Shown here piece after piece: positions 349 to 7,114 of a DNA stretch of 7,114 bases. This stretch comes from Candidatus Methylomirabilota bacterium (GTDB taxonomy: Bacteria > Methylomirabilota > Methylomirabilia > Methylomirabilales > Methylomirabilaceae). Positions within the stretch are counted from its first letter, which is position 1. Each line of letters opens with the position of its first letter. The notes beneath the pieces are model-generated. The model did no database searches and was not told the DNA's origin. It saw nothing but the letters and a program-made list of their open reading frames with translations. Made by a program: the position numbers and the translations under genes. The DNA lies in assembly GCA_016200385.1 (NCBI GenBank), contig JACQEV010000186.1:1-7114 (forward strand). The letters are read 5' to 3'.

Positions 349-451
349 CGGATACTGTAATCGACAAATTTCAGCTTGTCAACGCTGAAGGGGGGCGCTT
401 TGCCTCCCTCACCCGACCCCCTCTACCGATGAAAGGAGACAAGAAGGTGAC

Positions 452-453
452 TA
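452..453. repeat. TA target-site duplication, left copy
   Basis: TA directly outside the left inverted repeat, matching TA at 1617-1618 outside the right one. TA duplication is the hallmark of IS630/Tc1-mariner transposition. With flanking C451 and G1619, the empty site reads CTAG. Confidence 0.85.
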
Positions 454-478
454 GTGTTTAGTTATCTAGATTAGCGTA
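454..478. repeat. IS630 left terminal inverted repeat (IRL)
   Basis: It starts GTGTTTAGTT and ends ATTAGCGTA. Aligned with the reverse complement of 1592-1616 it matches at 20 of 25 positions; the mismatches are at repeat positions 3, 4, 11, 13 and 16. The inner nine bases ATTAGCGTA are identical. The transposase TAA stop (458-460, complement) lies inside it, so the last residues of the protein are encoded by the repeat. Confidence 0.85.
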
Positions 479-1525
479 TGATCTACTCAATCCCTTGGGC
501 GACACGTGTTGCTTGGTCCACTGAAAGGGGGCTGCCGTGTCGTTGTGGGCCTTGACGAATCGGTCAATGGCCTCCCGTACCTGCCGGGGGGAAGTAAAGC
601 TGGCCCCCTTGAGGGCCCGTCGGCTGAGGATGCTAAACCAGATTTCCACTTGGTTGAGCCAGGACGCATGAGTGGGCGTGTAGTGGAAGTGGACATGCGG
701 GTGGCGCAGGAGCCACCGATCCCGTTTCGGCTTATGGGTGTTGAGGTTGTCCAGGATCACATGGATGTCTTTCCGGGGATAGGCCGCCACGACCTCATTC
801 ATGAAGGCGAGAAATTCTCGCCGTCGGCGACGGGTGAAGTGGCCGGTCTTGACTTGGCCCGTGGCCACCTCCAAGGCGGCAAACAGCGTGGTCGTGCCGT
901 GCCGCGTGTACTCGTGCGAGTACCCCGCCAGGGCGGTCCCGTTGGGCAGCCGCAGCCACCCCTGGGCGCGTTCCAGGGCTTGGATGCCGGGTTTCTCGTC
1001 CACGCAGAGCACCATGGCATTGGCGGGCGGGTCCAGGTACAACCCGACAAGGTCCGCCGCCTTCGGGGCACACTCCGGGTCCGTACTGATACACCAACTG
1101 CGGCGCCGCTGCAGCTGGATGTGATGCCGTCTCAGTACGTGCCACACGTGCGCCGCGCTGACATCGCCCAGCCGCTGCGCGACCAGGGTCCCGGTCCAGG
1201 TGGCCCAGCCCTTCGGCGGCGGCTCTTCCAAGATCGCCACGATGCGCCGCTCCGTCCCCGCATCGTACCGGCGCGGTCGGCCTTGGCGAAACGCATCGCT
1301 GAGGCCTTCGATCCCGTGACGTGCAAAGCGGGTCCGCCACTTGCTGACTCGTGCCGCGCGCGTCTTCAAGGCTGCCGCGACCTCCTGATTCGTTTTTCCC
1401 TCGGCCAGCGCCAGAATCATTCGGGCGCGTTCCGCCAGCCGGTGCTCCGTCTTGCCGGAATGCGTCCAAGCGACCAGTGCTGTGCACTCCTCATCGCTGA
1501 GGACAATCGGGGTGCCTTTTGCCAT
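458..1525 (-). CDS. IS630-family DDE transposase
   Basis: A cut-and-paste transposase of 355 residues that should bind the IS ends and integrate at TA. An N-terminal helix-turn-helix region is visible at about residues 39-80 (NQEVAAALKTRAARVSKWR), followed by a basic linker. The catalytic core shows the three acidic residues of the family: D176 in LCVDEKPG, D259 in VILDNLNTHK and E294 in NQVEIWFS. The last two are 35 positions apart, the typical IS630 D34E spacing. The frame is open from 1561, but I prefer the ATG at 1523-1525 because GGAGGT (1532-1537, complement) sits 6 nt upstream and the upstream ATG has no ribosome binding site. The stop codon lies inside the left inverted repeat. The gene looks intact, and its start region may be masked in readthrough transcripts (see 1531-1577). 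Confidence 0.92.
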   Translation of the reverse strand: MAKGTPIVLSDEECTALVAWTHSGKTEHRLAERARMILALAEGKTNQEVAAALKTRAARVSKWRTRFARHGIEGLSDAFRQGRPRRYDAGTERRIVAILEEPPPKGWATWTGTLVAQRLGDVSAAHVWHVLRRHHIQLQRRRSWCISTDPECAPKAADLVGLYLDPPANAMVLCVDEKPGIQALERAQGWLRLPNGTALAGYSHEYTRHGTTTLFAALEVATGQVKTGHFTRRRRREFLAFMNEVVAAYPRKDIHVILDNLNTHKPKRDRWLLRHPHVHFHYTPTHASWLNQVEIWFSILSRRALKGASFTSPRQVREAIDRFVKAHNDTAAPFQWTKQHVSPKGLSRSYANLDN

Positions 1526-1530
1526 CCGCC

Positions 1531-1577
1531 TACCTCCGATCCTGTGGTACCCTGGACCCATTCCAAGGCCGGAGGTA
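1531..1577 (-). promoter_or_regulatory. Anti-Shine-Dalgarno leader hairpin of the transposase (putative readthrough silencer)
   Basis: On the minus strand TACCTCCG (1577-1570) is perfectly complementary to CGGAGGTA (1538-1531), which contains the transposase Shine-Dalgarno. Between them an inner hairpin of seven pairs with one G-U, CCTTGGA (1568-1562) with TCCAGGG (1556-1550), closes an ATGGG loop and brings the outer arms together. The 5' arm overlaps the end of the predicted -10 box, so an mRNA started by the IS promoter (near 1570) would lack most or all of the arm. Readthrough mRNA from the upstream gene would contain it and fold over the RBS. The pairing is visible in the sequence; the regulatory role is inference by analogy with IS10-type fold-back inhibition. 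Confidence 0.6.
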
Positions 1578-1605
1578 GTATACAGAATGTGTACGCTAAT
1601 TTAAA
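1577..1605 (-). promoter_or_regulatory. Putative transposase promoter partly inside the right inverted repeat
   Basis: On the minus strand TTTAAA (1605-1600; 4 of 6 against TTGACA) and TATACT (1582-1577; 5 of 6 against TATAAT) are separated by exactly 17 nt. The -35 box is inside IRR and the -10 box just inside the element. The predicted start point is near 1570, about 45 nt before the chosen transposase ATG. Confidence 0.5.
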
Positions 1606-1616
1606 GAACTAAGTAC
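1592..1616. repeat. IS630 right terminal inverted repeat (IRR)
   Basis: On the minus strand it starts GTACTTAGTT and ends ATTAGCGTA, matching IRL at 20 of 25 positions. It contains the -35 box of the putative transposase promoter. Its outermost base (C1616, G on the minus strand) becomes the third base of the TAG stop codon of the neighbouring zf-TFIIB gene. Confidence 0.85.
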
Positions 1617-2141
1617 TAGAAGGCTCCCCAGTCCTGTTTACCTGGTAGATAATAGCTTGGGCAAAGAAAGCGAAATATCCGGGCGATCATTCTAGCCCGC
1701 TCGGCATGCTCCTGGCTTTCTACGCGCATCGCGGCCAGTTGCGTATCGAAAACCTCAGAGAAATATGCCTCGGCTGCTCTCCTCCTTTCTTCTTCGGTAT
1801 TGAATTCCTTCCGAATCGTTCCCAATTCACCCACATCTAACCAGTACCCCCCACCCAGGGCATTCGTCAACCGTCACTCGCTTTTTCACGCTAAAAAAGT
1901 GCCGCATCATGATAAGGCCAGTACATTTTGGGCACCTTCGCCTCTTCGTCTGATCAATCACGATCTTTTCGTTCTTCGTAATATCCAGGAGGACCTCGCC
2001 CACGGATTCGCAAGGCTCGTCAACCTTCTGCAGCTCAAATCGGTCGAACCAGATTCCTCCGCAGCCTCCTTTGCAGACATCAACCGTGATCTCTCCGGCG
2101 ATTATCTTACTCAGTTCATTCTCACACGCTGGGCATTTCAT
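1616..2141 (-). pseudogene. zf-TFIIB domain protein, frameshifted
   Basis: A small, probably cytosolic zinc-ribbon protein of unknown function. The first frame (2141 to the break) gives CPAC at residues 3-6, CKGGC at 23-27, the GGIWFDRFEL motif, CPKC at 70-73 and then DECPG. The family continues with C-G-G-x-W-L-D-x-G-E-L, but here the frame runs into WGVLVRCG and stops at 1827-1829. The expected continuation GGYWLDVGEL is found in another frame and runs on through EEERRRAAEAYFSEVF to the end PGKQDWGAF at 1616. Restoring two bases (for example GC before the six-G run at 1852-1847 on the minus strand) rebuilds CPGCGGYWLD and a protein of 175 residues. Both halves look well conserved, so the break is recent or a sequencing or assembly error. 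The Shine-Dalgarno is AGGGGTAGGA just before the ATG. The IS insertion falls in the stop codon and does not change the C-terminus. Confidence 0.82.
1617..1618. repeat. TA target-site duplication, right copy
   Basis: Right copy of the TA duplicated on insertion. Read on the minus strand it supplies the T and A of the TAG stop codon of the zf-TFIIB gene; the G comes from the IS end. Confidence 0.85.
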
Positions 2142-6371: not shown

Positions 6372-7114
6372 TTAGTCCCATCGGCGTTCATCGAGGATCT
6401 TCTTGGCTCCATCGGCGATGGTCCCCGGAGGGACCGCTTCAACAGTCGCCCGGATCTTCAACAGATCCTTGGTTTTCTCTTTCAGTTTGGCCAAGAGCGG
6501 CTCTGCCTCGACGCCGCTCGCTAGCTCCACCCGGAAGGTCATCTCGTCGTCATGTCCTCTCAGGCGCACCACAACCTGACATCGCGTGACTTCGGGGAAC
6601 GCTCCCGCCACCTCATCCACCTGTCGCGGGTGGACGAACATCCCTTTGATCTTCGTCACCTCGTCCACTCGGCCCATGATTCCCTTGAGCCGCGCGGAGG
6701 TCCTGCCGCAGGGACAGGGGTCTGTCGTGACTGCCGAGAGGTCGCCAGTCCCAAAACGGATCAGCGGATAGACCTCATCGAACAGGGTGACCACCACCTC
6801 CCCGGGTTCCCCGGCGGCAACCTCGAGGCCACTCTGCGGGTCAACGATCTGTAGGAGCAGGTCATCGGCGATATGCATCCCGGATGCCTCCTGGCACTCG
6901 TAGCCGATGAGACCCAGATCGCCGATAGCGTAGGTTTGTCTGATCAGAAGCCAATAGCGCTCTGCCATCATCTGCCGCATCGACTAGGCCATCATCGCGC
7001 CACCCAGTGACGCGACACGAAGGCAAAGGTCCCTCGCAACATCACCCCCCATCTCCTCGGCCTTGCTGATCAGCGTAGCCAGGAATGCGGCCGTCCCGAC
7101 GAATCCCGTCACCC
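6372..7114 (-). pseudogene. PaaK-type phenylacetate-CoA ligase family gene, 5' cut by window edge, in-frame stop
   Basis: The C-terminal half of an AMP-forming acyl-CoA ligase, which would activate an aromatic or similar acid to its CoA thioester with ATP. One frame runs from the window edge with VTGFVGTAAFLATLIS and ends at ASLGGAMMA before TAG (6984-6986, complement). The same frame continues at once with SMRQMMAERYWLLIRQTYA. Downstream are GDLGLIGYEC, GEVVVTLF, YPLIRFGTGDLS, PCPCGRTS, GRVDEVTKIKGMFVHPRQVDEV (split here: GRVDEV, KIKGMFVHP, RQVDEV) and the lysine-rich end GAKKILDERRWD, all matching PaaK-family C-terminal motifs. The family is usually about 430 residues, so roughly 190 residues are outside the window. 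The stop replaces one residue in a continuous alignment, which points to a nonsense mutation or base error. An ATG 3 nt past the stop (6978-6980) would permit reinitiation, but no good ribosome binding site precedes it. Confidence 0.82.
6984..6986 (-). other. In-frame amber codon interrupting the ligase gene
   Basis: TAG on the minus strand between GGAMMA and SMRQMMAERY, with the same reading frame coding on both sides. A single base change from AAG (Lys) or CAG (Gln) would explain it. No recoding element is evident. Confidence 0.8.

Follow-up and report, generated by a model that had tools for sequence, protein, structure and literature searches.

Insertion sequences that land beside host genes are constantly at risk from stray transcription, and the question raised by this locus is whether an element that lies directly behind a co-directional gene carries, in the leader of its own transposase mRNA, a device that silences the transposase in messages entering from outside. 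The window, i.e., the whole stretch of 7114 bases that was analysed, holds an IS630-family insertion sequence on its minus strand (454..1616), delimited by its terminal inverted repeats (TIRs) and flanking TA dinucleotides, and no second copy of the element was found in the MAG (2.21 Mb, 411 contigs, 81% complete). The two 28-nt TIRs, at 451..478 (3′ end of the transposase gene, with the flanking CTA) and 1592..1619 (5′ end of the gene), are 82% complementary, and the TA dinucleotides, read directly at 452-453 and 1617-1618, agree with the TA duplication expected of IS630; one TA side was matched against uninterrupted relatives of the same genus, the other side not being conserved in those genomes. 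The transposase gene (458..1525, minus strand) is intact and encodes a full-length protein of 355 aa, which scored 240 bits against the NCBIfam IS630 model NF033545 (cut-off 100), placing it in this family, and whose DDE domain was recognized by Pfam DDE_3 (PF13358, 2.7e-22). The transposases of IS630 (IS630-Tc1-mariner) have a DD34E triad spacing, and here D176, D259, and E294 did not vary in either of two alignments (17 and 15 sequences), with 34 residues separating the last two. Database proteins P0001-P0009 are 78-94% identical to this transposase.

Immediately upstream, and transcribed in the same direction, lies a host zinc-ribbon gene (PF13453; 1616..2141, minus strand, ORFs 2141-1827 and 1870-1616). 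In two same-genus relatives (L151 and L152) the same gene ends TTC-TAA and TTT-TAG at the point where the element begins, and the window flanks rejoined at the TA read TTC-TAG, so that the element sits inside the stop codon of this co-directional gene, whose TAG is regenerated by the first G of the element. The earlier note on this DNA had placed the insertion directly after a co-directional host gene, which was borne out and can be put more sharply, the insertion being in the TA of the host's own TAG stop. Transcription of the host gene, if unterminated, would enter the transposase gene, and the host ribosomes would exit at the element edge, ahead of the hairpin described below. At a G-rich spot (1827-1870) the host gene is two bases shorter than in both same-genus relatives and therefore reads as two overlapping ORFs, which is either a frameshift or an assembly error. 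Elsewhere in the window we observed a perfect 10-bp palindrome outside the element (328-348, AAGTGGACCG-T-CGGTCCACTT) and a 202-aa ORF (6372-6980) with an AMP-binding C-terminal domain, i.e., the rear part of the enzyme only, whose gene may be broken or may have its front part in another frame.

On the minus strand, the predicted transposase promoter consists of a −35 box TTTAAA (1600..1605) within the TIR and a −10 box TATACT (1577..1582) at a spacer of 17, which was the sole sigma-70-like match in a consensus scan of both strands of 1300-2250. The SD sequence GGAGGT (1537-1532) stands 6 bases ahead of the ATG (1525-1523), and CTACCTCCG (1578-1570, the anti-SD arm), read directly and recovered in the folds, is a perfect 9-bp complement of CGGAGGTAG (1538-1530, the SD arm, read directly). 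Between the arms, the folds gave an inner stem in which GCCUUGGA (1569-1562) pairs with UCCAGGGU (1556-1549) over 8 bp, including two G.U, around the loop AUGGG (1561-1557). The earlier note had described an 8-nt complement of the ribosome-binding site, a second stem of 7 pairs between the arms, and a promoter ending exactly where the anti-SD begins: the complement is indeed perfect but 9 bp long, the 7 pairs fall inside the 8-bp inner stem, and TTTAAA-17-TATACT is present, with an overlap of two bases between the end of its −10 box and the arm. Given this overlap and a start some 7 nt further on, transcription would be expected to begin at the arm's end, at G1570 or G1569 (~7 nt past the −10 box). 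One feature of an IS10-like device is that the ribosome-binding site has a complement located ahead of the native start; here such a complement was found, 9 bp long and lying across the predicted start. The hairpin loop contains an AUG (1561-1559) that is in frame with the transposase and opens a 367-aa frame, 10 nt away from where the mRNA is expected to begin. No terminator-like site was found in 1300-2250, nor was a plus-strand promoter over the initiation region, such as would give an IS10-type antisense RNA, detected there by the consensus scan, which is a weak test; the leader had no Rfam match.

Fold energies of the minus-strand RNA were scored against 200 dinucleotide shuffles. In the fold of 1580-1515 the SD is fully paired (z −3.18, 2/200 shuffles as good), and the hairpin also forms in 1616-1500 (z −2.16, 8/200) and 1580-1500 (z −1.32, 19/200), where it stands out less, while it is absent from the RNAs without the arm (z −0.34 for 1570-1515 and −0.35 for 1570-1500). 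The cost of opening the SD was 10.2 kcal/mol for 5′ ends at 1582-1580 and 6.1-6.3 kcal/mol for 5′ ends from 1575 to 1564, which means that a start at least 3 nt past the −10 box frees the SD from the arm and that the exact start within 1575-1564 is immaterial. The expectation in the earlier note that mRNA from outside would mask the SD, and self-initiated mRNA would leave it free, agreed with the folds as regards the hairpin, which masks the SD in the 1616-1500 RNA and is gone in the 1570-1500 RNA; the SD of the short mRNA, however, was only partly freed (mean unpaired probability 0.18 vs. 0.00 in the long RNA, opening cost 6.1 vs. 10.2 kcal/mol) and at equilibrium most of it remains paired to early codons. 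A ribosome could bind the short RNA before these codons are synthesised.

When the 54-nt leader was dinucleotide-shuffled 20,000 times, a perfect 9-bp complement to the 9-nt SD arose in 0.075% of cases. As a control, 102 SD-bearing ORFs were taken from 400 kb of a genome of the same genus; their longest run was 6 (3/102), with at least 7 in 0/102. Perfect inverted repeats of at least 9 bp with loops of at most 60 occur six times in the 7114-base window; repeats of this size are ordinary in themselves, and what is unusual here is the placement.

Genome contigs scanned at the protein level yielded 39 loci related to the transposase, in hosts of many phyla, and genome searches yielded a few more. 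Within the phylum of the window, relatives were present in 3/95 genomes including its own, at 52% and 48% identity, and, with already-known genomes counted, phylum samples around other hosts contained them in 1/199, 3/297, 1/132, 1/247, 1/251, and 4/246 genomes and phylum samples searched with other queries in 3/129 and 0/249. Some searches of viral contigs returned no relative, and 10 pattern-selected viral stretches held none (best E 0.85); other searches of viral contigs gave 22 loci in one set and 2 in another, and phage records a single match at 29%. With loci lacking a usable 5′ region and identical leaders excluded beforehand, 47 elements were tabulated, from which nine with a TIR score <15 (L058, L008, L055, L019, L031, L017, L021, L062, L029) and four near-duplicates (L102, L033, L036, L038) were removed to leave 34. 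L043 is in this set despite an uncertain start codon, and L044 (in-frame stop) and L030 (only 12 codons read) were retained because only leaders were used. When the −35 box was anchored in the TIR, where its position is preserved across relatives, 18 of the 34 were leadered (17-51 nt, window included) and 16 predicted to be leaderless, the 17 leadered relatives of the window being 43-69% identical. The −10 boxes of L026 and L032 were set by hand, and the stretches used in the tests below were picked after the first relatives had been seen.

For the leadered elements, the segment tested was the 14 nt that begin with the −10 box and run to +8. It paired with the element's own SD region beyond what its own shuffles gave (Fisher 9.8e-11 and, on repetition, 3.7e-11, n = 18; p below 0.05 in 10/18), and this held without the window (2.4e-9 and, on repetition, 1.8e-9, n = 17), with automated −10 boxes only (4.4e-9, n = 16), and in the strictest set of 11 (automated boxes, a single member from each close group, window excluded; 4.4e-6), for which segments exchanged between elements equalled the result in 48 of 20,000 permutations. 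Tested against the segments of other elements, the own segment gave Fisher values of 8.7e-5 (n = 18) and 2.9e-4 (n = 17). When the 14-nt segment was slid along the sequence, the signal peaked with the segment's last base at +8 from the −10 end (mean z −2.7 over 10 elements, because short leaders drop out), and positions ahead of the −10 box gave values near 0. In 12 of the 18 leadered elements the first base of the second arm falls within the SD region, −16 to −6 from the start codon; loss of the first arm lowers the SD opening cost by at least 2 kcal/mol in 14, and in 15 that cost drops most steeply somewhere from 8 nt before to 9 nt past the −10 end. The gain was below 2 kcal/mol in L020, L022, L042, and L083; in the first three of these the arm has the first codons as its partner, and opening the SD costs almost as much without the arm as with it.

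The letters of the fold differ from one element to the next. L083, the closest relative with DNA (70% identical), has the layout CCTCC-ACAA-GGAGG, L027 has GCTTCC-AAAAC-GGGAGC, L026 has TCCCC with GGGGG, and L044 has TTCCTCTGT with ACGGAGGAA, some pairings (L044, L096, L099) including G.U. The genome G1448 contains a leadered relative with the same lock in 15 copies (L106-L123), 11 of them with 100% protein identity over the query, and this element is likely active; its AGACTCCTT pairs with AAGGAGGTCT with one bulge, which is kept in 13/15 copies, the other two being without a 5′ end. Two relatives of this element (91% protein identity) have AGACTCC/GGGGTCT and AGGCTCC/GGGGGTCT, and thus preserve the pairing with different letters, partly via G.U. 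The earlier note had staked its reading on arms that are conserved or covary in related copies: conservation of the letters was not seen, but the arrangement is kept among the leadered relatives, the pre-start stretch being complementary to each element's own, differing SD region.

In the 16 elements predicted to be leaderless, the start codon lies 5-10 nt past the −10 box (5-7 nt in 14 of these), and it is from this distance that a leaderless transposase mRNA is predicted. Here the first codons have a complement in the 12 nt that lead from the −10 box toward the start (Fisher 2e-7, 5/16 below 0.05), 0 of 20,000 permutations were as good, and the signal is confined to the pre-start stretch. 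The start region of these elements was hardly less accessible than with a shuffled segment (unpaired 0.41 vs. 0.45), and the complementarity may serve to shut this region in read-through RNA or may be a DNA dyad. We tentatively put forward, at somewhat less than even confidence, a rule for the subfamily in which a lock is placed between the −10 box and the start, each lineage having remade it in its own letters against the SD, the start codon, or the first codons, with SD-less members being leaderless and in that way also filtering read-through RNA. Under such a rule RNA begun outside would carry the lock, which RNA from the own promoter could not, since the lock bases lie between the −10 box and the start, and a leaderless message would filter read-through RNA because an internal AUG without an SD is hardly used.

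How far this rule might extend was examined in 24 of 26 distant plasmid IS630 loci (L134 and L135 left out), which are 28-56% identical, with one partial match at 66%. As a group these did not follow the wider rule (Fisher 0.25, 7921/20,000 permutations). The SD test gave Fisher 0.054 for the 14 leadered plasmid elements, and 0.006 when the start codon was added post hoc, and the 11 plasmid elements with a promoter score of at least 5 gave 0.051, but with 5608/20,000 permutations. The automated −10 call of L131, a hexamer inside the likely 3′ arm, was kept as called; one plasmid element, L127, does resemble the rule, its TATGATCG pairing with CGATCATG over the start codon. Conservation of the arrangement among relatives, another feature of an IS10-like device, was therefore found in the leadered subfamily and not, as a group, in the 24 distant elements, for which reason the claim is limited to the subfamily with CTAGT-type, promoter-bearing ends. 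Three further subfamily members (L175, L176, and L058, held out, with −10 boxes set by hand, and too few to settle the rule) gave Fisher 0.001, which rests on L176, whose start region matches that of L023 in the first set, whilst L175 (0.18) and L058 (0.40) were not significant singly. Upstream of 1201, L176 has a perfect 13-bp hairpin, CTTTTCTAGGCAT/ATGCCTAGAAAAG, whose second arm includes the start codon.

Some candidate observations were tried and set aside. Three-frame stops in the TIR, as a guard of the hairpin against ribosomes, occurred within 24 nt in 9/34 elements (shuffle mean 1.5) but within 36 nt in 12/34 (6.4, maximum 13). The use of G.U as proof of an RNA role was not decisive (z with G.U vs. 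Watson-Crick only: 0.79 vs. 1.09 in leadered and 1.07 vs. 1.07 in leaderless elements), and for the N-terminal extensions of P0010 and P0017, considered as translated anti-SD leaders, back-translation was too ambiguous.

On balance, we consider it probable that the SD complement lying across the predicted start masks the SD in read-through mRNA and that the element's own mRNA escapes this and is translated. An mRNA arriving from the upstream host gene would carry the arm, fold, and mask the SD, with the inner stem likely joining the two arms as the RNA is synthesised, and the mRNA of the element itself, beginning beyond the complement, would be translated. The element is thereby likely to ignore stray transcription from its neighbours. 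The fold-back interpretation of the earlier note is supported at the level of sequence, from which we infer the start point, the lost translation of read-through mRNA, and selection for transposition control as the origin of the arrangement.

Other explanations of the same sequence were weighed against this one. That the leader merely happens to contain the complement of its own SD is very improbable: the six inverted repeats counted in the window fit such a coincidence, and for this element alone the value is ~0.001 before allowing for everything a reader scanned, but the relatives show the pairing when the window is omitted (the Fisher values for 17 elements and for the strictest 11 being 1.8e-9 and 4.4e-6, respectively). 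A native start upstream of the arm would put the hairpin on every transposase mRNA, as a constant brake or as a temperature- or ligand-dependent switch, which would suit a stable hairpin and a transcription start that is predicted only; we regard it as rather improbable, given that TTTAAA-17-TATACT is the sole promoter-like site in 1300-2250, that the place of the −35 box in the TIR is kept across relatives, that the complementarity tracks the predicted start, and that no Rfam match was obtained. It is scarcely credible that translation begins at the loop AUG (1561-1559) with the hairpin serving that start, because this AUG, despite its open frame of 367 aa, is without an SD, and the nine closest database proteins (P0001-P0009) are listed as 355 aa from MAK/MAN, which is the gene caller's choice.

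The complementarity might instead reside in the DNA, as an operator dyad over the −10 box and start to which the transposase, or a different protein, binds in autorepression, with the RNA pairing as a by-product. For a single protein site, an inter-arm gap that varies from 3 to 32 nt is unfit, and an operator accounts poorly for a second arm that starts in the SD region in 12/18 leadered elements and for the G.U pairs of L044, L096, and L099. Allowing G.U, however, does not raise the longest-run scores above those for Watson-Crick pairs alone, and the 16 leaderless elements, which have no SD to mask, are still complementary to their first codons; it is mainly because of these elements, in which the role of the complementarity is less clear, that an operator, although unlikely, keeps some weight.

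Returning to the fold-back reading, the device most likely protects against read-through in the manner of IS10, whose transposase belongs to an unrelated family. The protection of IS10/Tn10 from external promoters was reportedly described by Davis, Simons, and Kleckner in 1985. In IS10, the complement present in read-through mRNA folds over the transposase initiation region, and self-initiated mRNA is without this complement; the present element is alike in having an upstream complement over the initiation region that is lost, here by prediction, from self-initiated mRNA. It differs in its transposase family, in an arm that overlaps the −10 box and whose letters vary from element to element, and in that IS10 has an antisense RNA, for which no such promoter was found here. 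External transcripts of IS50/Tn5 form a stem that hides the ribosome-binding site of the transposase, which is a similar hiding in another family, and Beuzon et al. are said, to judge from the title of their 1999 work, to have shown that structures in the IS200 transposase mRNA repress transposase synthesis, so that RNA structure likewise acts against transposase synthesis in a different family and enzyme type. The use of antisense RNA by IS10 is mentioned in PMC8450116 and PMC4265352. According to the former, a structured 5′-UTR controls transposase translation in ISPpu9 and the antisense RNA Asr9 relieves this (PMC8450116), the difference being that the structure belongs to the native mRNA, independent of transcript origin (PMC8450116). 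The 5′ terminators of insertion sequences, or 'mobile attenuators', are proposed in PMC2965389 to block expression in transcribed regions; they work by termination (PMC2965389), and no terminator-like site was seen here. In the open-licence literature searched, no description of fold-back or leaderless control of an IS630 element was found. If the pre-start lock is a rule of the subfamily, read-through protection would be present in the IS630-Tc1-mariner group besides IS10-like elements, and a sequence signature would mark the true start of the transposase mRNA without RNA data; the idea is also raised that a leaderless transposase mRNA is a second route to read-through protection. The type of mechanism is known from other elements, and what would be new is its occurrence in this family, a lock made of the bases that lead from the −10 box up to the start, and the repeated remaking of that lock in different letters.
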